Assembly (NCBI GenBank): GCA_028554795.2
Contig: CM068835.1
Location: forward strand, 54,772,219 to 54,836,218
Length of the DNA: 64,000 bases
Source of the DNA: Sinohyriopsis cumingii
Taxonomy: Eukaryota > Mollusca > Bivalvia > Unionida > Unionidae
Direction of reading: 5' to 3'
Of this stretch, positions 577-60,722 are shown in pieces. Within the stretch, counting starts at the first letter, position 1; each line of letters starts with the position of its first letter. The translations under genes were made by a program, and so were the position numbers. The notes beneath the pieces were generated by a model, which saw only the letters and a list, made by a program, of their open reading frames with translations, did not search any database and was not told the DNA's origin.

Positions 577-3500
577 CGGCCATCCTGGAAAAATTCCATC
601 TGCCAATTTCTTGTCAAAGTCAGTTCTCACAGTTTCCATCTCCTGCAGAAAAAAGAAAAAAAAATATCAGTAATAACCTGTTTGGCTGCAAGGGTAAATC
701 ACTTCTGTTATTTCAGAAGAAAAGAATATGACATGATTATAAAATTCAGAAATTCCCTAATACATAAAACAAGCAATAGTAGAATTCATGACTTGTATGC
801 GTTTCCACAAGAGAAATTCAAGGACTTTCCAGGGATTAAATAAAACATTCCAGGACCTTAAATTTAGACAGTACAAGAAAAAATCATAAAGGAATGATCA
901 GCAAAACAAATAAAAAATGTTGAAACATTGGAGATTGGCAAATACACATAGTAAGATCACTGATGAACCAACCATGCTGACATTCCAAGAACCATAAGAG
1001 GAAACAAATGGTCCAAAATAAATTGTAAGGTACAAAGATGATTTTAAAGGATTGTACAACTAATTTGTCAATTTGCAAGGCAGCATACAAACCCTGAAAA
1101 ATATACATTCTAACAAGAGTTTTGTTGAAAAACACATTATACAAAATCCTAATAATGCTTATGATGATATCACCTGAAAAAGCACGTCTTTTAAGTTCTG
1201 ATGATGCAGACAAAACAAGCGGCCAAATGGACCTGATATTGCTCATCAGACTTACATATCTATTGACAGGTCAGCTGAAAACCTTCTGGATCTAGATAAT
1301 GTACAACACGACTTATATGATTCACCAATAAAGAGCTTTATTTCTTTTTTAACTTTTAAAGAAGTTCTTAAAACATTCAGATAATTTCCATTTGATTTGA
1401 CACGAATCATCACATGTCTATTTTTTAAAATAAAGTTTATGTATGTTTTGTTGCATATTATGCTAATGATTGACAGTCATGACATTTACAATCTGAGCCA
1501 ACCCTCATCATACATCTTATGGGTACAGCACGTTTCCAAAAGAGAATTTTTTTTAATAAAACCCACAAGTGATCACAACCAGTGATACATGCCCATGTTG
1601 ACAAAAGTACCATGAATTAAACATTATATGCTAGTCCCATGTTTAATTAATATTTCTCTAAGTAGATACATGAATTTTTGTGCAGAAACCATTTCCTTCT
1701 TTCAGTCAGTGACCTTGGCCTCCTACCTTCTGACCCTACAAGTGATAAGCTTCTTCCTTTCCCAAAAGCATGCCATTCACAAAGACTGGTCTAGACCTGT
1801 CACATATAACTAATGTCATTGTGAAGAAACCATTCTTATTCTTCCAGTTAACCTTGACCTTTTGACCCCAAAAGCAACATGTTTCTTTCCTGCTCAAGTA
1901 TGAGCTATCCAAAAAGCGATCTTGACCTTCAAGATTTAGACTCCAATATTAACAGAGTACTTGCTCCCCAAAATGTGAGCAAATCAGAAAATCAGGTCCC
2001 CACTGATGACAAATGAATGAAGTTATTCAATGACCTTTAAGCCCCAAAATCAATATAGTTCTACCTTACCCAATGTGCAAGTCATCCACAAAGTTTGGTA
2101 ACATTACATAGTGGAGTACTAGAGTTATTGTGCAGAAACCGTTTTTGTTCTTTTAGTAACCATAATATAAGTCTTTCAATCCTTTCACCCTGAAAATAAC
2201 AGGGTTCATCCTCACCCCAAGTACAATCCATCCAAAATACTTGTGAGCTTAAGATGTTGGACTAGTTAATGTAAAGAAACAATCCTGTAACAGACTGATG
2301 GTCAGATCAACATCATAAGACATGCTGCCTCATGGCACACATATAAAATTAACTCAAGGATCTGCATGTCTATACACATATTGCTTCTAAGCAACTTTTA
2401 TACTAAACATTCTGCTCCTTCAGTAATTTGCAATCAAATGAGCAGATCAGTATACGAGACTGTTCCTAACAAAGGCGACTCTAGTTTACATAGGTTACAT
2501 AGATACAGAAACAGACTATATAGCACACATGCATATTTTAGCTCCTTAATGATTGAAACCAACAACTATAATGGTAAATCAAGAAAAAGAGGATAATTTT
2601 ATTTGGCCACATAACCAGACCAATGGCTACATTGGATATGAATCTTAAAGACCAACTTTGCTGCTCATATTGACACAGACACAATTAAAATAACGACTGT
2701 GAAAACATATTTGGGTACATATAGATGATTCAAATGAAATTTAAAAATACTCACAGTACATAAAAAAGATACAATGTCAAAATATCACAATATGTTTTCT
2801 TTGTTCTCTAGGACTGAATGCATATCCAATATTTACCTGCTGGATATCAAGGAGAGGCTTCACTCTTTGTGTGTAAGATTCAAGATACTCCAACAGAAAC
2901 AATAGGTACCTGAAAATAAAAATTCAATTTGTAAATATACAGTACTATATATGTTCAGTTTGGTGTTTTAAAGCTAAGCAACAAGTAGGTAATTTAGTAC
3001 CAATGCAATCAATGCAAAGTGCCTTGCCCAAGAACACACCATGTTATCTAGTCCTAGATGATCCAATGGTAGGATTCAAACACACACCCTTTCGGCCATG
3101 AGTCCAGCATGCTAACAAATGAGCCACAATGGCCCTTGCTTCTGTTAGTTACCTCGCACAACATGAAGGAAGGCACAATGTGTTTCTTCTATAGTCAAAA
3201 GAAAAAAATACAAACGGCTATTTCACTAATACCTACTGTTAAAACACACTGAAAATAATATCGGATACCCTAAGTAAATTAGTCTAAAAATTACATGCTC
3301 TAACAAAAAAAAAAATAAAAAAAAATAATGATGCAGTAGAATTCCTACCATGCTTAAAAGCTAATCTCTCATGTAACTGAATTTAGATTCAAACTAGTTC
3401 TTATAATCAATATTATGGCACTTTTCAGAAAATATTTCTGAAATGAAACTTCAGTAGGGGACTAGTTTGGCATCATAATGTTCTTCATCTGCCTGAATTA

Positions 3501-6500
3501 CTCTAAATCACATTTTTTTGCAAAATTAAAATTAAAATGATGAACTTCTGTAGGGACTAGTTTGGCATCATAATGTCCATCAGCTCATATTAATATTCAA
3601 TTAATTTTGCAACACATTTATAATATATATATTTACATTCAGGATTTCCATTAATTTTTCATTTTTTGTATGTCTTGTACTTGGCTGGAAATTCTCAAGT
3701 CACCTACTTCAAGCACACAATCCCTAAAGTAAATAAAACAAGAATTCCTCAATAGGACTAACAAACTGGCAACAAAGAATTTCCACCGCCATTGAGATTA
3801 TTCAGCAATATTATGATTTTCAAATCAGAATATCTGGTTTATATATCAAATGTTAGATACACACAATTTTCATTTAGAACAAAGTACAGATCAGTCAAAC
3901 TGCTTTGTTGAAATCCCATGTCAACATGATCGTCCATTCAAGAGGATTAGTGACAATGAGCTTTTCAAAACGGCCTTTGTGCGCATCACTGGCACCATTT
4001 TTGTAAGGAGACTCATTTGGGAGAAGCTGAGATAATATTTTTATGATGGCCACCATGATAAACAAAAATTGAGTTAAACTTGGCACTGTTTTCATTTGGA
4101 ACCAGCTAGACGCCTTAACAACTCTTCGGATGAAAAACCCATGTCATTTGAGAGCAGTTACAAGATTTTCAAGGTTACCACCATGGCAGCCAGACTGGAT
4201 GGATGTGCAAATGGCACCCTTTTTATTTAGGACCAACTAAACAAGCATGTCTCCTGATGAAAACCCATGCTGATATGACCATCCATCCATTCAGGAAGAG
4301 TTAAGACTGCCATATTGGACATCCGATTGGGTGTGTGTGATTTAGATTTTTAACATAGGTTTAACAATTTTTATAGTGACATCTTGCACTGGGGCATCAT
4401 GCTGCAGACATGTAGCATCATGTCCCACCCAGTCACATTATCCTGACATCAGGCCTACCAGTCCTAACACTAACCTCTTAATGCTGAGTACCAAGCGAGG
4501 CAGCTGTTAGTACCATTTGTATAGGACATCAGATTGTAACCATTCTTATTTAGGACCAATTAGATATCTTAGTCTTTTATGTTGATATGACCATCCACTC
4601 ACACATGCAGCAATGTGAGTTTCAAGATGGCCCCTGTGGCGGCCATAATGGACATCAGGCTGGCACCCTGTTCATTTATAATGAACTTGACATCATAAAA
4701 AGTCTTCTACCGAAAATTCCATGTCAGTATGGCATTCAATTTAGTAGAAGAAGCAATAACAAAATGTTTATGATGGCTGTAATGGCCATATTGGATGTCA
4801 CATCAGCACCATGTTCATTTGCTAAGAAAACTTTGTACATTTGAGCACTGCTTTTTCAGGGTTCATAAAGACTTAGTGATATTTTTTCCTAGACCTTTTC
4901 ACAAGTTTTCAAGGAGTAATTTTTTAATCAAGTATTCTTTCAACAGATTTTTTTTAAACCAAGTACTCTTTTAAAAGAAGATTTAGTGTGGAGAGTCATA
5001 AACTTTGGTGTTGCAGTCCAGACTGAAATAGATGCAGAATTTTTTTTCCAGCTTTTGCAAACAATACAAACTGAAAGCAAAACTGACTAGAATAGTTCAC
5101 ATCTGATAATTTTGACATCATATCATTACATTTACATGTTTACTCATTCACAAAGAATTCTTCCTCCGTTACTAGATATGTGCTTTTCTAGACAGCATAC
5201 TAAAGGAAAAAAATCTGAGGATTCCAAATGATAGAAACAGACCGTTTCCTGTTTGTCTTGATGTAACAGGTGTTATGTTTATCTATATTGCCTCTTAACT
5301 TACAGTACATGACTGTAGATTGCAATGATTTATAAACAAGTTTTAATATCAATATTAATAATAAACCTGTTTACGAGTATGGAGAACTTTCTAGCTGGAT
5401 AATTAAGTTATGTGTCAGAGTACTGTGATGTAAGTCGAATGTGGTAAGTAGTGAGGTTTGTCATGTAGAAATGAACTGCACCTTAGTGTCATAGTGGAGC
5501 TGTGGGGTTGTGTGTGTGTGTATGTGTGTGTGCATATATATATATATACAGCAGACCCCCTTATAAATGGCACCCCTGACCAGCAGCCACCCATTTTTTA
5601 TTGCCAGAATCCCTCAGTACCAACAAGTTTGTGTTCAAAAGTACCCCTCAAGAAGGCCACACCTCTAATGTGACCAGCAGTCAGCATATTGGTGCAAAAA
5701 CGTAAAATATACCTTTCACAAGCAGTATCATTTTATTTAATATATTTCCAGAACCAATATTTAATTATACGGTATGGTAAGTAATCTGATTATGTTTACA
5801 GATGTCTGTTTCCTGATGTCAGGTTTTCATTACTTAAAGTGTTGTATAAGGTACATATACAATTATGGTTATTATTATATCATTAATGTGGGCGTTTACA
5901 GGAAACAGGGTCAACAATGTTGTGATAGAGTTTTGGGCGTCACATAGTGGCTGAGTTGTTTTCTTTGATGATTATGACCCAGTGTAACTGTCAGGATCAT
6001 AACATGGTCAGCATAGGCTAAATATAGATTATGTGGATTAATACACGGAGAGAAATTAACCTTGAACAAAACATGGTACCAGATGAAGACAGAAAAATCA
6101 TGTGACAGTACATGTATAAATTCCTTTACAAACAAGGCATTTTGTTGACTACAAATGTTTTGTCTGCATAATTAAGTTACAGAACTGAACAATTAGCAAC
6201 ACAGGAATAAATCACTATAAAACTTTAACATGTCATCAGATAAATGGAGAATTAATACTTTAGAAGAAAAAGTAAAAGTTATTCGAGTTAATGACAATGG
6301 GGATAGTTCAAGAGTTCTTGCCGAAAAATTAAGAAGAATATCCTGCAGCAGTGGGAAAATGGAGTAAATGGAAAGAGATGCCAAGCAATCTATGTATCAA
6401 GATTTAAATTACATTTTTGAATGGTTTTGCTATGTGCATGTCAACAATAACCTACTTGCATTTCATGTTTAAGAATAACAGCTCTTAATTTATGTTGACT

Positions 6501-50000: not shown

Positions 50001-52052
50001 TACATTAATTATATATACTGTATATTGTAATTAATTATAAATATATTATGTACATGGCAACCGTGCGAATAGTCTTCCAGGAATAGCAGAGAACTCGCCC
50101 CATGGAGAACTCACCTTGGGAGAACTCATCCCATGTTGGTCGGAGAATTCGCCCCACTTAATCTAGAGAAGTCGCCCCAAGTATAATATATATTATTTCC
50201 GAGATGTCGCCACATGGTTGTTAAGGCTTTATTTATTGTTGTTTTTCTTCAACTTAATAACTTATTAAATCTATAAAATGTGAAATTTTTTCAAGTTTTC
50301 CATTTGATCAACTCCGCTTCTGTACATAACGAAAAATAATTGATTTTTGTAAAGTGCTTTTACGCTGGTTTTATTTGATAAATTTAGGAGACTATAACAT
50401 TTATTAATTATACGACGTAGATTAGATAATGAAGGATTGGACTGTATTGTGAAAGGAATTACATATCTCTCTATTTTACATTCTGCTGTGTTTAAAGCCT
50501 GATGTTGAGTAATAATATGGGCTTTGTTCAGCGCAGAATGAACTATATGTGTAGGATAATTTCTATTTTGTAAATATGTTTGTAATTTATTCAACGAATT
50601 TTGTAATTGACAATCATTTGAAATAATGCATCGGTATATTTTCGACTGGCTATATGGTATACCGTTTTTACATGACATAGGATGACATGAATAATATTCC
50701 ACATATTTGTGGATATTAGTTTCCTTGATATGAATATTTGTTGAGATAGTGCAATCAATATTTTATATCACCTTTACATCTAAAAATTAAACATGCGTAC
50801 TAAATGCAGTATAAGTAAATTTAATTGTCGGATGAAAATGATTTAGGCGATCAATAAACTTTTTCAGTTCTTCGGCCGACTGCTTCTAGATATAAATATG
50901 TCATCGAAAATTCTGAACCAAGAGATGATTAAACTTTTCGTTTTGAAGAAAACAACTTTCAAATTTACCCATGAAAGGAAAGAGTATGAAGGAGCCATAT
51001 TAATATCCATTATTTGTATGTAATTCATATTATTAAATTGAAAATAAGTATTTTCCATGATAAGTTTATTATTATATGAATATCTTCACAAGAAAGTGTG
51101 CTATTGCTGGGATTGTTATCAAGAAAATATTTACATGCTTCAATACCAACTGCATGCTGAAAGTTGGTATATAGTGATGTTACATCTAATTATACCAAGG
51201 TTGAAATTAACAGATAGCTGTGGAATAGACTTCAACTTTGTAATGAAAGTTGTTGTATCTTTAATGTATGATTTAATTACGAGTTTTGGGTAATATGTAG
51301 AATTGAGGTGTACGCATATTAAGAGGGAAAGTATCAAATTCCTCATATACAGAATTTTTTTTTTTTAGCCATCTCATTAATACATGTTGAAATTGTCTAT
51401 TTAATTTCTATTGACGGATCTTCAACAATATGTTTGTAGTAGTATTCATCATTTAATTGACATTCAACTTCTTTAACATAATCTTCTTGATTCTTAATAA
51501 TAATAGTGTCTGACTTATACTCCTTTTTAATCACTGTACTGTCGTCATTCATTAGATCATATAAAGACTTCATTTCGTCTTAAGCATATTACTATGTCAT
51601 TGCTTTTTATGATTACCAGTTAATATCTCTTTTGTGAACGCGTATAAATAAACATGTAAATATGAATCACGTAAAAGATGTTTTAATTCTGTTATCAAAA
51701 GGTTATCCGAGTTTTGGGGCGACTCCTCCAACCACTCTGGGGCGACTTCTCCAGATGCGTTGGGGCGAGTTCTCCATGGGGCGAGTTCTCTGCATACCGT
51801 CGTCTAGTCATCCAGATAAAGTACATGGTGGCCGTGTAAATTGTATCTTCCAATTTTTTGTTTTATAGGTGAACTGCGGCAGTGGGAGTTTAACTTGTAC
51901 TTTAGACTTAAATTCTATGCCTTGTCAATTCAAGACTCAAAATATGAAGTTACTTTTTGCACAGGAGGTAAATTACTAGAGCTGACATCTTCATCATCAG
52001 ATTCGGGTGCCTCGCCCTGTACAACGGTAGGAACTCTCCTTGTTTCATCCAT
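32013..52052 (-). CDS. BLOC1S3: BLOC-1 subunit 3, complete, 6 coding exons
   Basis: Subunit of the BLOC-1 complex, which sorts cargo to lysosome-related organelles on endosomes. Exons in order of transcription: 52052-51954, 45802-45712, 41116-41014, 38149-38130 (20 nt), 35051-34930, 32165-32013. Phases join throughout to 195 codons plus TGA; the human protein is 202 aa. The start ATG has an in-frame TAG four codons upstream. The acidic, probably disordered N-terminal half holds two related motifs, VVQGEAPESDDED (exon 1) and VVSGEASESEDED (exon 2), followed by SLPPLTV. Human BLOC1S3 has the same two-copy arrangement followed by DLPPL. Residues from about 98 form the helical region (LLHKKLRERN...), ending in CTILPEI, which aligns with CRLLPDI of human. 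The tail LPPVAMGALAMDTIHTP is specific to this copy. Introns reach 6 kb and carry SINEs, a LINE remnant, a TIR element and the Penelope-like unit. The 3' UTR end was not determined; TTTATT at 31209-31214 (AATAAA on minus) is a candidate signal. Confidence 0.9.
32758..33011 (+). mobile_element. SINE-A copy 7, full length
   Basis: Complete copy with the head GGGGCCCCGAGAGGCCGAG, a B box GGTTCGAGTCC, and a (CAA)n tail. The perfect 11-bp duplication ACTAAACATTA lies at 32747-32757 and 33012-33022. It is in BLOC1S3 intron 5, antisense to the gene. Confidence 0.93.
36313..36636 (-). mobile_element. SINE-B copy, full length, diverged
   Basis: Longest copy of the family. The conserved core is at 36455-36515 and a degenerate tRNA-like head lies at the right end (complement of TTTGAACCCATGACCTGTC and CCAAAGTGGTC). 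It is in BLOC1S3 intron 4. Confidence 0.78.
37456..37978. repeat. Tandem repeat, about 151-bp unit, 3.4 copies
   Basis: Units start GTACTCCTAATCACAGA(C/T)A and include ACCAATTGCTATAAT and GAGGGA(G/C)AGCTGTATC. They differ by few substitutions, so the amplification is recent. It is in BLOC1S3 intron 4, about 150 bp from the 20-nt exon 4. Confidence 0.92.
38292..38434. repeat. Poly-C (12) and short (TG)n
   Basis: A run of twelve C at 38292-38303 and (TG)n at 38411-38434 in BLOC1S3 intron 3. Confidence 0.85.
38918..39566. repeat. 36-bp minisatellite, about 11 copies, split by a SINE
   Basis: Unit CAAGGCACATCTGGACCACT plus AGTCTAATATGTGTAC, at 38918-39272 and resuming at 39526-39566 after SINE-A copy 8. 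TGTGTACC and TATGTACC variants alternate, giving a 72-bp higher-order unit. Since 36 is divisible by 3, both strands read open, which makes false ORFs. It is in BLOC1S3 intron 3. Confidence 0.93.
39273..39525 (-). mobile_element. SINE-A copy 8, inserted into the 36-bp minisatellite
   Basis: Full-length copy with an 11-bp duplication CTAATATATGT at 39262-39272 and 39526-39536, which is itself part of the minisatellite unit. The array resumes after it for about one unit. Confidence 0.94.
39566..40130 (+). pseudogene. Non-LTR retrotransposon RT fragment, internally deleted
   Basis: Reads FHDDIKGTMAQ, FDIHSGVKQSCVLAPMLFGI and GIYLHTQSDGRLFNMA, typical of LINE RT. It then runs IRDILFA and jumps to GKASTTLSRLSQRV, ISVYHACVLST, LYASENWTLYTSQEKRL and AFHMRCLECVLGIT. 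The catalytic DD that should follow LFA is deleted, together with the segment after it. Stops and a frameshift are present. It is in BLOC1S3 intron 3, beside the minisatellite. Confidence 0.82.
40479..40725 (-). mobile_element. SINE-B copy with clear tRNA-like head
   Basis: Read on the minus strand, it starts ACCACTCTGGTGGGCTAGTA and carries a B box GTGGGTTCAAACCC. The family core CTAACCTCTTAATGCTGAAC (plus strand) follows. It is in BLOC1S3 intron 3. Confidence 0.8.
43373..43505 (+). repeat. Dispersed repeat E, copy 2
   Basis: Same order of words as the copy at 11077, immediately left of the fused SINE pair. It is in BLOC1S3 intron 2. Confidence 0.6.
43511..43709. mobile_element. Head-to-head fused pair of SINE-A 3' ends (fold-back)
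   Basis: Positions 43511-43595 are a minus-oriented SINE-A 3' end, with (GTT)n first. From 43595 the sequence switches directly to a plus-oriented 3' end that runs to (AAC)n at 43709. The two halves share the body and would pair as a hairpin. No sequence separates them. Confidence 0.82.
44010..45579 (+). mobile_element. TIR element D, copy 2 (1.57 kb)
   Basis: Begins CACCACTCCCTCGATAACTT and ends, as complement, GACCTCTCCCTCGATAACTC, with TA on both sides (44008-44009, 45580-45581). The internal fold-back is at 45138-45211. The right end is 132 bp from BLOC1S3 exon 2. It has the same structure as copy 1 with scattered substitutions and indels. Confidence 0.83.
46545..46916 (+). mobile_element. 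Pogo-like element, 3' part, without the nested insertions
   Basis: Parallels 6350-8241 of the first copy: GTGGGAAAATGGAG, the transposase remnant YQDLNVFELFFNVHDNN (approximate reading), TGTAGCTTTCTTACT, then GGAAAGGCCACCTGTCTTAT and the end TAAGAGGGGGACCACAG followed by TA. It lacks both the SINE and element D. The left terminus is missing. Confidence 0.72.
47335..47725. repeat. Degenerate tandem repeat, about 165-bp unit, 2.3 copies
   Basis: Recurring words GTGTAATGTTTCTTG / GTTGTAAGGTTTCTTG, TGAAAAGTGAATAT and GTTATTCTAG. It is in BLOC1S3 intron 1. Confidence 0.65.
47726..50085. other. BLOC1S3 intron 1, central part
   Basis: Mostly unremarkable AT-rich sequence. A short duplicated word (GCAACTGCAATGTTTTTCGG / GCAACTGCAATTTTTTTTGG) lies near 47810-47860. 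No coding signal I can support. Confidence 0.5.
50086..51793 (-). mobile_element. 1.7-kb unit with perfect 27-bp TIRs enclosing a Penelope-like RT remnant
   Basis: Terminal inverted repeats at 50086-50112 and 51767-51793 are identical over 27 bp (outer words GCAGAGAACTCGCCCC). Inside each end, shorter degenerate repeats of GAGAA(C/G)TCGCCCCA continue for about 80 bp. No long target duplication is visible. The interior on the minus strand is a frame-broken reverse transcriptase. It lies in BLOC1S3 intron 1, 160 bp from exon 1. Confidence 0.75.
50271..51590 (-). pseudogene. Penelope-like reverse transcriptase, frame-broken
   Basis: Successive minus-strand pieces follow the order of Penelope-like RT: DTIIIKNQEDYVKEVECQLN (about 51520-51450), SYIKDTTTFITKLKS (about 51285-51230), then MAPSYSF and WFRIFDDIFI (about 51000-50900) with both catalytic Asp of the DD box kept. 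After these come SCHPMSC, GIPYSQSKIYR and NRNYPTHIV, and a C-terminal NLSNK...VMYRSG block (50702-50271). Stops and shifts separate the pieces. No GIY-YIG endonuclease follows, and the N-terminal part is short. The family assignment rests on recognised motifs, not a search. Confidence 0.7.
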
Positions 52053-57000: not shown

Positions 57001-60000
57001 ATGGCCTAAGACAAAAGGATGACAGTACAGTAAAACCTGTTATGAGAGACTGCCCCTTCTGCCAACAAAAATGGTCTCTTCTGACAGGTGGTCTTTTATA
57101 ACAGGTTTTCCAAAAAGACCAGTTTCCAAGGTCCAGTTTCATAATAATTTTAAAAAAAATAACCACAATCACTGTACATTAAAACTTTTGATTTGAGTGA
57201 CCGCTGCTATGAGCGATGACCTGTCATTTCTGACTACAATCATAATGCATGGATTGATTTTATTATATAAACACTCTGTTGTGAGTAACCACCTGCTGAA
57301 GCAACTGGCGACCGCAATGTTTTGGCAAAATATGCATTTTGACTGCTATGAACAACCGCATCACAAAAATGAGGATATAATACACCAACTTTTATTTAGT
57401 CCCAGTAACAATGACAGCTCATACCATTCCCCCAAAAATAGGCTGGCTACCGATATCTAAAAATGTTTATGTCTGCTTCTGGGGTTATATAGTTTTTGTT
57501 GTAAACCAGACTTAAGTACATGTAGTTCATTCCTTAGTCTGGTTCCCTGCTTCATGTGCTCCTTGTGTTGTTATTTGCTATTTATATAGGGCAGAGCAAC
57601 ACCGGGAACATAAGAAGCAGGGAAGCAGACTAATTATTCCCACACTTAGCCTGCTTCCCGGCCTTATCATAGATCATACATATGAGTGATTACATGCCGA
57701 CATCGTGGTGGTCAAGAAGTAAGCTTTTTATTGTCCTTTGAAAAAACTGGGGGGTGAAGATTCCTGAAAATCATATCTTTTTAAACATGTCCATGTCCTG
57801 GGGGTGTTGGGGGTTGTGTCCAAATTGTGTTTTTTGTATGACACAGCATGTTATGGCTGGCATGTCAGGCTGGCCTTTTTCAAGAATTCCCCAAGTCCTT
57901 CTCTGAAACACTGCCAAGGGTTCATCCTCACTATGTCCCTTATCATCATTAAGATTGAGATTTCTTTCTTGTTTTCATTTTCCATTTGATAAATGACCGC
58001 ATTGATGTTTGACCAGTCAGACAACTCTCCATCTTGTGAATGCATGTTAGACAAAATATTGTAATATTACAGTATTCTAGTCATTACATGGTAAGTACAA
58101 GTATATCATTAAATGCATCAGAAGTGCACTAATTTGTGCATTTTACTTGTTTTTTTTCTTCAAATTTATTTTAATTTCAAAGAAATCAGCTAAACACAAT
58201 ACAAACAAAAACAATTAGAGTGTATTAATAATGATATAGACGAGCCATTGTAAAATTTAAATGAATGGTATGCTTTATTGCTTGTATATCCGCTAACCAA
58301 AATTCGATAAGTCGGCCATTTAGTTTGTAAAACCAGTGAAATAGAAAATGGAGTTTGTAACTGATTAATGAATTTGCTGAAAGCAAAATATATTTACGAC
58401 CAATTAGTGCACTGCGGTCAAGTCAGTTTCTCACCTGACCACTACAGATCTTTATAAGAGATAGGCTTATTTATTAAATGCATCAATTTGCAGAGTAGAA
58501 ACTTGATGCATGCAAACAATACACATACTGTATCAAATTTATGCATGTAGTTTTCACACTTTATGCATATATGATATTGATTGTAATATTTTTTATATAT
58601 TTTGGTTTAATTTTTTTCTACAGTAAGATGTAATTACCTGTATTTTGACATGTTTTATAATAAATTGGGAAAATTGACAAAAACGTGTGAATAACACCAT
58701 GATCCACCAAGGAGTTGATAGACACTTACAAACTTGGATTCGTTAAACTTGGCTTAATTGACTGGCTTAGGTTAAGGTGTTACATTTTTAGCTCATGACC
58801 ATGCAGAGTTTTTGGCAGGTTCTCTGCATATGTAAAATATAAAAACTCATGGGTGCATCTCAGTGAACACTACACCCTCTTTTAAGTGGTAAATAAATAT
58901 CAGATATATTTTATATTTCACTGACTTGGGTTTTTTGCTTTTCATGTTGATTTCTTAGGATTGTTTATGCTGTTGTCATGCAATTGATGATGCTATGCAT
59001 TTCTGTTACTACCACACTCTTATGGATTATTGTGATCTGTTTTTCATTTTTCATCCTTTATTAGTTAACTCAAGACTATGTTTTTGTCAGGTTATATGCT
59101 CACTCTCCTATCTAGAATCATAAAATTAGGTGAGTGGGTACATCTTATATAGTTCTCAAACCTTTTTGCTAAAAGAAGTCTGTGTAACCCATATTTTATG
59201 TTCTTTGAATTTTATATGAACATCTCATTTCTTGGGACAGGGATGAAATGCTAATGTGGCAGATCCAATCAGTGCTGACTTCACTTTTATTTCAGCCAAT
59301 TAAACTCTGTCTTTCAGAAATATGTTGAAGGTCCAAATGTGTATTTACACTAACCATGGTCAGTGTGAGTTGATTGCCAGGTACTGTATCTGGTAGTTCT
59401 GCCTAATTGGGTTATCATATGTTGACAGATGTAGCACCTCGGCACACAAGGAAAACATAAGCCTATGACGAATATTTTTGTGTGGATTAAAACTGCTAGA
59501 ATTTGGGAGCTGTAAGCCCTCTAGATCAGCAAGTTCTCTGGTCCTTTTAGTTTAGCCTGCTATGACAGAAGTTCAACTTGGCGATGGCGATCATTTTCTT
59601 TGAGCTTGTTCATGTACATGCAGTCATTGTAGATGTACATGAAACGGTGTAGAGTTTGTGCAGTTGTTCATTGGAATTAAGAAAGTGTTTATGCATTTAT
59701 TATCCACCTTGGGATATTGGGTTTACAGGTTGAAGTCCAGTCCGTTGGACATCATTCTTGTATAAAAAAAAGAATTTGCTTTATTCCTTGAAAATGTGGA
59801 TTCTTTTTTGTGATCATCTTATTATAAAGTTTACTTTCAGGACGCCAGAGAGTATATAAAGCAAGAGCATAGTGGTTCAAGAAGTTCTAGTCCAGAGCCT
59901 GTGAAAAAGATGAAACAAGACCCAGACAGAGCAAAAGACATTAAATCAAGGCATTATGATAGAGATAGAAGGTACAGAGAAGATAGGGATCGGGATAAAG

Positions 60001-60722
60001 ATGGACGACACAGAGATTATGATCCACATCGAAGAATTAAACAGGAACCGCAAGATGATTATGAGTCGCAAAATAGAGAAAGACGCCAAAATGATGCAAG
60101 GCGTATTGAAGCTAGACGAAATCGAAAGGGTAATCCATTAAGACCTGATAGGCATGGAATGGAGATGGGTGGAGCTGAAAGGACTGATGATTCACAAGCT
60201 GAAAATAAACCAGCTGAAAAACCCAATTTTCAGCTCTCGGGAAAGCTCACTGAGGATACTAATACTTACAGAGGTGTTGTTATTAAGTATAATGAACCTC
60301 CGGAGGCACGGAAGCCCAAAAAGAGATGGAGGCTGTACCCATTCAAAAATGATGAGGCTTTGCAATTACTGCATATTCACAGACAGAGTGCATATTTAAT
60401 AGGTCGAGATAGACTTGTAGCTGACATTCCTGTGGACCATCCTTCATGCTCTAAACAACACGCAGTGCTTCAGTACAGAATGGTTGACTTAAAACGTGAG
60501 GATGGCACTGTTGGAAAACGAGTAGCTCCATATATAATTGACTTAGACTCATCCAATGGAACATATGTGAATAATGAGAAGATAGAACCACGTCGTTATG
60601 TGGAGCTTTTTGAAAGGGATGTGATCAAATTCGGGTACAGCAGTCGTGAATATGTTTTGTTACATGAAAGGTCAGATACAAGTGAAGTTGCGGAAGCTGG
60701 AGAAGCAGGGGAATCACCCTAA
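54060..60722 (+). CDS. SNIP1: Smad nuclear-interacting protein 1 (FHA domain), 2 exons
   Basis: Nuclear FHA-domain protein known in animals as a spliceosome-associated factor and a regulator of Smad/NF-kB signalling and microRNA biogenesis. Exon 1 is 54060-54167 (36 codons, Lys/Ser/His-rich); the donor after TCG is GTTTGT. Exon 2 is 59841-60722, preceded by TTTACTTTCAG, and keeps the phase. The model gives 329 aa against 396 in human. Residues 37-150 are an Arg/Asp/Glu-rich low-complexity region with KQE motifs. The block ending KPKKRWRLYPFKNDEALQLL leads into the FHA domain (about 205-310), which has the expected G224-R225, S240-x-x-H243 and N275-G276 phosphothreonine-binding positions. SSREYVLLHE and an acidic tail close the protein, as in human. 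An additional small exon inside the 5.7-kb intron cannot be excluded. The start is the first ATG and is followed by the expected basic N-terminus; exon 1 is the least certain part. Confidence 0.93.
54736..54926. mobile_element. Fold-back MITE in SNIP1 intron 1
   Basis: 29-bp arms at 54736-54764 and 54898-54926 match at 26 positions and include a perfect 16-bp core, AGATCCGAACAAACTC. The spacer is 133 bp and holds no recognisable gene. Confidence 0.6.
54931..55235 (+). mobile_element. SINE-B copy, full length, plus orientation
   Basis: Head TCAGTGGTGGAATCCAAGAC with B box GTGTTTGATCCCC, then the core GCTCAGCATTAAGAGGTTAG and GTCAGGATAATGTCACAG, ending near AAGAATCCAAACC. It abuts a fold-back element and lies in SNIP1 intron 1. 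Confidence 0.8.
55430..56690. repeat. Diverged direct duplication in SNIP1 intron 1
   Basis: 55430-55680 and 56405-56690 share TGACTAAATAATG / TGCCTAAATAACG, GTTGACTGA(C/T)AGG, TTGG(T/C)AGCCCATATC, CCTAATGGAG-like and GTTGGAATG words in the same order. The 700 bp between them is unrelated. Confidence 0.5.
56667..56835. mobile_element. Fold-back element with 40-bp arms
   Basis: Arms at 56667-56706 and 56796-56835 (around GGAATGTGATGAAAGCC) are inverted repeats with a handful of mismatches. The spacer is 89 bp. The sequence just left of it belongs to a diverged duplicate of 55430-55680. Confidence 0.6.
57028..57180 (+). mobile_element. Pogo-like transposon terminus (partial)
   Basis: TA then CAGTAAAACCTGTTATGAGA, with the subterminal inverted words GGTCTTTTATAACAGGTTTT, a pattern typical of pogo/Tigger ends. 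The opposite terminus was not located. It is in SNIP1 intron 1. Confidence 0.45.
57534..57633. mobile_element. 100-bp fold-back MITE
   Basis: 20-bp terminal inverted repeats, TTAGTCTGGTTCCCTGCTTC and the complement TTAGTCTGCTTCCCTGCTTC (19/20), enclose 60 bp. The same terminal word forms the fold-back inside both copies of element D. A further half arm (TTAGCCTGCTTCCCGG) lies at about 57647-57662. Confidence 0.7.

Follow-up and report, generated by a model that had tools for sequence, protein, structure and literature searches.

A 64,000-nucleotide stretch of the genome of the bivalve Sinohyriopsis cumingii (contig CM068835.1, positions 54,772,219 to 54,836,218; hereafter the window) contains, at 50081-51798, an element bounded by inverted repeats that encloses the remains of a reverse transcriptase (RT) region of Penelope-like type. 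We refer to the inverted-repeat-bounded element around the Penelope piece as the shell, and to Penelope copies outside shells as free copies. The shell is probably a non-autonomous foldback-type DNA transposon that has amplified a dead Penelope fragment as a passenger. A first-pass annotation of the window had proposed either a fold-back element carrying RT sequence and mobilised in trans, or a Penelope variant that lacks the endonuclease and has unusual termini. The former proposal is supported by 9-bp target duplications in 13 of 14 copies, by lesions shared among the shell copies and by the lack of codon constraint in these copies, the shell presumably being mobilised by a transposase acting in trans.

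Terminal structure and target site duplications

The ends of the window element are formed by perfect 27-bp inverted repeats (27/27), positions 50086-50112 being the reverse complement of 51767-51793. Comparison with copies elsewhere in the genome showed that the full element extends 5 bp beyond either repeat, the left terminus being GAATA (50081-50085) and the right terminus ATACC (51794-51798), and both outermost motifs recur in other copies, single-base variants included. The sub-repeats that had been noticed inside the repeats are present as well: at up to 2 mismatches, GAGAACTCGCCCCA starts at 50089, 50120, 50143 and 50166 on the plus strand and at 51715, 51738, 51761 and 51777 on the minus strand. 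No further site was found in the 64-kb window at this threshold, so that the sub-repeats are confined to four per arm.

A search of the genome (2.9 Gb, 1138 contigs) with the element gave 2397 candidates, the best 40 of which were scored and yielded 104 matching pieces. The best 30 places are designated L001-L030 and a set of longer stretches L031-L050; L051-L053, L054-L055 and three very short loci were added later. Wide or sufficient flanks were available for 19 fetched shell loci (the window, L031-L040, L046-L050 and L051-L053), and target site duplications were compared in the 14 of these that have both ends recognised in the fetched stretch. At least 7 of 9 flanking positions agreed in 13 of these 14 same-ended copies, and the 9-bp duplication was perfect in 8. 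Mean flank identity at 9 bp was 0.87, as compared with 0.28 in 182 shuffled pairings, none of which reached 75%. At the other lengths between 5 and 12 bp, 0 or 1 of the 14 copies reached at least 75%; among the shuffled pairings 5, 1 and 2 of 182 did so at lengths 5, 7 and 8, respectively.

The 20-base end patterns, allowing 1 mismatch, occur at 128 left and 252 right places in the genome, and a reversed control occurs at none. Positions were listed for 100 of the 128 left and 100 of the 252 right places, both lists being complete on contigs C1-C3. These three contigs have 34 left and 59 right ends, among which 11 pairs less than 30 kb apart face each other and none is in another arrangement. 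Random placement gave a mean of 0.06 facing pairs and a highest value of 3 in 2000 draws. The remaining 23 of the 34 left ends have no partner at up to 1 mismatch. The ends behave like DNA-transposon termini.

The Penelope piece and its free relatives

Between its arms the window copy carries RT pieces on the minus strand, in broken frames. To this extent the ordered but broken RT motifs of the first-pass annotation stand, but a Pfam scan of six pieces of the window copy gave no RT or GIY-YIG match at E values up to 1, and the motifs were recognised as RT through the free relatives. Six free copies at five loci (L041-L045) match positions ∼50326-51694 of the window. In the two free loci scanned (L042 and L043), RT stretches are followed by a GIY-YIG domain. 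The L042 copy has an RVT_1 match just below the cut-off (E 1.1e-6, 28.9 bits; cut-off 29.6) and a GIY-YIG match above it (23.4 bits; cut-off 22.6), and the GIY-YIG match of L043 (17.7 bits) is below this latter cut-off. L041 contains tandem copies and L042 a 482-bp inverted repeat. The free relatives of the passenger have the combination of RT and GIY-YIG endonuclease that characterises Penelope elements. Hammerhead ribozymes are frequent in Penelope-like elements without being defining; an Rfam scan of L040-L043, L045, L050 and L052 gave none at E values up to 0.5.

Longer shell copies (L031-L036, L040 and L050) have an extra 1.0-1.7 kb between the window-equivalents 50339 and 50330, and carry Penelope sequence through the endonuclease region to a normal 3′ end, the same as that of the free copies. 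This 3′ end lies inside the shell, separated from the left arm by non-Penelope sequence, and on the 5′ side the Penelope sequence breaks off ∼100 bp before the right terminus; the 5′ truncation was compared in nine shell copies. Conversely, the shell repeat motif was not found, at up to 3 mismatches, in the five fetched free loci. The termini of the shell as a unit are apparently not Penelope's own.

In the genome, a search with the Penelope protein gave 8822 candidates, and the best 100, when scored, yielded 101 rows. Identity was 72-100% for 73 rows, 14 of which are without a stop in the matched stretch, and 61-64% for 28 rows, 26 of which are without a stop; the latter group looks like a related Penelope family with uninterrupted stretches. 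Proximity was tested with 141 shell ends (100 left and 41 exact right) out of the 380 counted. None of the 101 protein rows lies within 10 kb of these ends, as compared with 22 of 30 shell copies.

These observations bear on the possibility that the inverted repeats are inverted pseudo-long terminal repeats (pLTRs), and that the unit moves by Penelope reverse transcription together with foreign DNA. Rotifer families offer a precedent, in that Penelope copies with inverted pLTRs have 9- and 10-bp duplications and foreign DNA mobilised by pLTRs has an 8-bp duplication (PMC3846280; this paper, PMC6446971 and PMC8277862 are cited here from excerpts), and the shell interior does hold Penelope sequence. 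Against this possibility stand the internal 3′ end with non-Penelope sequence toward the left arm, the free loci in which the repeat motif was not found, the distance of all 101 protein rows from the 141 ends, the constant duplication length of 9 bp in 13 of the 14 copies tested, and the presence of both ends in the fetched stretch of 14 of the 19 shell loci. We consider movement of the shell as a pLTR-bounded Penelope unit very unlikely.

The passenger was dead before its amplification

Lesions were scored on the alignment to L042, positions being equated within ∼3 bases. A 144-bp loss (L042 3151-3294) was present in all 20 shell copies with data and in none of five free copies; it corresponds to residues 27-74 of the L042 open stretch, in which the GIY-YIG match covers residues 50-87. 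A 1-bp deletion at L042 3996 was found in 31 of 31 shell and 0 of 5 free copies, and another at 4078-4081 in 29 of 30 and 0 of 6. An inserted base at 4321 is present in 31 of 32 shell copies and in 1 of 6 free copies. In addition, the shell rows end at L042:4388 (31 of 33) or 4361 (2 of 33), whereas all six free rows continue to 4473-4480. The shell as a unit does not combine RT with a GIY-YIG endonuclease.

A midpoint-rooted tree placed 32 shell rows and 6 free rows on opposite sides, with support of 0.92 and 1.0, and showed many short internal branches among the shell copies, which differ pairwise by a mean of 6.7% in the L042-aligned region. The ratio of differences at codon position 3 to those at positions 1-2 was 0.90 among shell copies, 1.36 among the few free sequences, and 1.31 between shell and free copies. 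Shell copies show no codon constraint, and the Penelope passenger was dead before it was amplified.

The deletion that distinguishes the window copy from the longer copies has the same junction in L046, L047 and L048; the window is identical to these except for a 4-base gap. The junction of L049 resembles it but has several differences. Since the junction is common to L046, L047, L048 and the window while their flanks are all different, the short form was mobilised after its deletion arose. The window copy is a member of a shorter subfamily with a common internal deletion, in which the whole endonuclease region has been lost.

Taken by itself, the window copy, without endonuclease region and with unusual ends, could pass for an endonuclease-less Penelope variant with novel termini. 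Its longer relatives, however, hold the endonuclease region with the common partial deletion (20/20 shell, 0/5 free) together with a normal 3′ end, and the window subfamily lost what remained of this region by a second, larger deletion. In addition, a free copy has a GIY-YIG match above cut-off, the piece is 5′-truncated in the nine shell copies compared, and its frameshifts are shared among shell copies (29/30, 31/31 and 31/32). This alternative of the first-pass annotation is therefore not supported and extremely improbable.

Entry of the passenger and other interiors

Target-primed insertion usually truncates the 5′ end and leaves the 3′ end intact. The Penelope sequence in the longer shell copies has this form, which makes insertion of a Penelope element into the shell the simpler explanation. 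At the internal junctions no Penelope target duplication was readable. The earlier term "captured" should be qualified: the intact 3′ and truncated 5′ ends of the carried piece look like an ordinary Penelope insertion followed by co-mobilisation.

The first-pass annotation had suggested a search for the same ends with different interiors. L051, L052 and L053 have the same ends and are largely different inside. Their end patterns are separated by 689, 2063 and 1035 bp, respectively. The interior of L053 is a Penelope piece, and that of L052 consists of ∼190 bp of the Penelope 5′ part and a different middle. No Penelope piece was seen in L051, which retains the left part and, of the right end, the final 28 bases. 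All three loci were considered as unoccupied shells and rejected, L052 and L053 because they hold Penelope pieces and L051 in view of the parts that it keeps.

A search with L052:120-1000 gave 1343 candidates; of the best 40, which were scored, 23 stop at 905-930 and 17 reach the end of the query. The Penelope-bearing copies L040 and L050 also leave L052 at 905-930. These matches concern left parts, the right ends lying outside the comparison. The region L052:480-1640 matches a second repeat: 40 matches to this region were scored, and 28 of them end near L052:1611, at 84-87% identity. The continuation of the second repeat at C14 is repeated too (210 candidates; the best 40 were scored, at 95-100% identity). 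In the C9 copy of the second repeat the expected left terminus is absent, the left edge lying between C9:108956404 and ∼108956600; L057 is a single occurrence and L058 ends in a TA run.

The second repeat is relevant to the question of whether the shell acquired its Penelope piece at the DNA level, by template switching or gap repair in the manner of Pack-TIR or Pack-MULE elements (TIR, terminal inverted repeat), and not by Penelope insertion. Such capture would be in line with a second repeat that also shares the interior of same-ended elements and continues, in one match, into sequence with 210 candidates, and template switching has been proposed for multicopy Pack-TIRs (PMC8277862). The intact 3′ end and truncated 5′ end are, however, the usual outcome of target-primed insertion, and the second repeat, as judged from a place on C19, may have been captured or may be a longer form related to the shell. 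Capture is therefore possible but doubtful.

At the place on C19, a match that starts inside the left arm (C19:2492062-2492941) is followed, ∼0.5 kb on, by the second-repeat continuation (C19:2493477-2493677). Because of this arrangement the second repeat may be a longer shell relative and not a foreign piece, which weighs against the shell being a general vehicle for retroelement remains with the L052-type second repeat as a further passenger. We regard a general vehicle as unlikely. If the second repeat is a passenger too, parts of dead retroelements would be amplified recurrently by a class II transposon that has hardly any sequence of its own, giving rise to families of 'retro' sequence whose spread does not involve reverse transcription.

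Proposed history and search for a transposase

The history that we propose is as follows. The shell, whose terminal inverted repeats are of foldback type and consist of short tandem sub-repeats, is probably a non-autonomous DNA transposon, and its insertion duplicates 9 bp of target. The 5′-truncated Penelope-like element inside it would most simply have inserted there by its own target-primed mechanism. The inserted copy was broken, after which the shell would have been cut and pasted by a transposase from elsewhere and the dead Penelope sequence thereby amplified as a passenger. Internal deletions during this amplification would have produced shorter subfamilies, the window copy's among them. 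Literature searches did not turn up a description of a Penelope passenger inside a TIR shell, which is no proof that there is none.

Several points weigh against this history. The loci were selected because they resemble the window or its relatives. L037-L039, in which the left end was unrecognised (for L038, a left part that matches is found at a distance of 12 kb), and L035 and L036, in which the right end was unrecognised, were dropped from the duplication test; copies with 1.5-kb flanks only were left out of it, and it included no empty site. L047 is without a duplication (1/9) and the window's own agrees at only 7 of 9 positions. A 9-bp duplication is by itself insufficient against a Penelope mechanism, because rotifer Penelope elements with inverted pLTRs can show 8-10 bp duplications and carry foreign DNA (PMC3846280). 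Two of the six free copies, L043 and L044, have 98% identity across 8 kb, flanks included, and hence are not independent; the insertion at L042 4321 also occurs in one free copy. Moreover, a transposase was not found inside a copy with these ends. A search for MULE domains gave 474 candidates, and the best 150, when scored, yielded 132 matches; none of these lies within the end pairs compared by eye, 180 of the 380 end places being unlisted. Finally, a shell copy on C52 (L055) contains a DDE_1 transposase.

No helper was thus recognised among the MULE-domain matches in the end pairs compared by eye. Tigger-type transposons duplicate TA, and on this ground the DDE_1 gene of L055 is probably a nested Tigger-type insertion and not the helper. 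Same-ended elements with ends 23-25 kb apart were considered as an autonomous source; one such pair, on C1 (25.5 kb), comes from the pairing on C1-C3, and those on C10, C14 and C15 were read by eye. The C14 element (L036), the only one inspected, is a shell copy interrupted by other sequence at window-equivalent 51644. L035 and L022 are interrupted likewise and are not among the listed 23-25 kb pairs; of L035 and L036, only L035 shows Polinton-type domains.

MULE-domain matches form regular arrays, mostly with ∼12.4 kb spacing, at C12:68.60-68.76 Mb, at C12:77.59-77.67 Mb, on C153 and on C478. Those at C7:129.8-130.0 Mb are spaced by ∼19-21 kb in part of the group.

Features of the window and other observations

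The features of the window element are compiled in Table 1.

Table 1. Positions of the shell, its passenger and the flanking duplications in the window.
Feature	Position	Strand	Remarks
Left target site duplication GTCTTCCAG	50072-50080	.	7/9 match with 51799-51807
Left terminal GAATA, outside the 27-bp repeat; the right end is GGTAT on the other strand	50081-50085	.	GAATA in 10/11, AAATA in 1/11 tabulated copies
Left shell arm: tandem GGAGAA(C/G)TCGCCCCA-type sub-repeats, then AT-rich	50081-50339	+	Homologous arm in other copies
Internal deletion junction, left arm to Penelope piece; ∼1.0-1.7 kb of longer copies missing	50330-50345	.	
Penelope-like piece: RT region, frame-broken, 5′-truncated at right edge	50330-51698	-	83-87% identity to free L041-L045
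Open stretch with DD-box region of RT piece	50864-51085	-	Motif read by eye
Site of ∼122 bp RT coding loss relative to free copies (L043 4111-4232)	51270-51271	-	
Right shell arm, tandem sub-repeats, ending CTCTGC-ATACC	51715-51798	-	Comparison with copies; sub-repeats
Right target site duplication GTCGTCTAG	51799-51807	.	7/9 match with GTCTTCCAG

In L024/L035, L023/L036 and L022 the shell is interrupted by other sequence at window-equivalents 51606, 51644 and 51619, respectively; these three interruptions, within ∼40 bp of each other, mark a possible insertion hotspot. L035 carries rve integrase and A32-type ATPase domains and is Polinton-like. An open stretch in L036 without a Pfam match is one that we take to be protease-like. 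On C3 (52198687-52359837), seven right-end matches form a series in which five of the six gaps measure 22.3-22.6 kb and the other 49.0 kb, perhaps a tandem array with one shell end per unit. The free locus L041 contains two Rfam Histone3 3′-UTR stem-loops, at 1351-1396 (-) and 2457-2502 (+) (36.4 and 36.5 bits; gathering threshold 34), near both ends of a 1.2-kb block that is 92% identical to a flank of L027. About 8 kb from the window element, at 59814-60719 (+), begins an open stretch of 302 aa; it contains an FHA domain (PF00498, E 2.5e-18) and presumably resembles SNIP1. Some repeats of the window may be cephalopod-like.

Comparison with known systems

The composite is real and somewhat unusual, in that remains of one class of mobile element are apparently spread by a different class. 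An annotation of repeats that relies on RT homology would score shell copies as Penelope activity, although the Penelope sequence in them is dead and was spread otherwise. Since it is free of codon constraint, the passenger may be used as a neutral clock. Repeated uptake of retroelement pieces by the shell, if it occurs, would provide a natural case of cross-class hitch-hiking.

The foldback elements FB and FB4 of Drosophila have inverted arms of tandem sub-repeats, and the arms of the shell, inverted and composed of tandem short sub-repeats, are like them in this respect. The 9-bp duplication and the terminal anatomy together suggest that the shell resembles the Rehavkus group of the Mutator superfamily. 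Target duplications in this superfamily are 8-11 bp long, and the Rehavkus group has 9-bp duplications, terminal repeats of 26-400 bp and a minisatellite beside a terminus (PMC6446971). The shell shares with this group the 9-bp duplication (13/14) and long terminal inverted repeats with arms of tandem sub-repeats near the terminus. The shell differs from Rehavkus in that neither a transposase nor a PHD finger was found with its ends, and in that much of many interiors is retroelement-derived.

Multicopy Pack-TIRs are defined by foreign, non-transposable-element sequence between TIR ends in copies with distinct target duplications; the excerpt of a survey of animal reference genomes gives four such cases and no Pack-MULE (PMC8277862). 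The shell has distinct duplications and works alike, but falls outside this definition because its passenger is itself a transposable element. It is similar to Ssk-FB4 in having a multicopy passenger between transposon ends, and different in that this passenger is a retroelement fragment and not a host gene (PMC8277862). Shell copies also number in the tens, as compared with three loci in two cases described in the same excerpt.

With respect to the GIY-YIG Penelope elements, such as the rotifer Pen families (PMC3846280), it is the free copies that are alike: their RT is followed by GIY-YIG, and they include the tandem arrangement of L041 and the inverted repeat of L042. The piece carried in the shell is, in contrast, truncated, frame-broken and internal, and none of the free copies examined showed the termini that enclose it.

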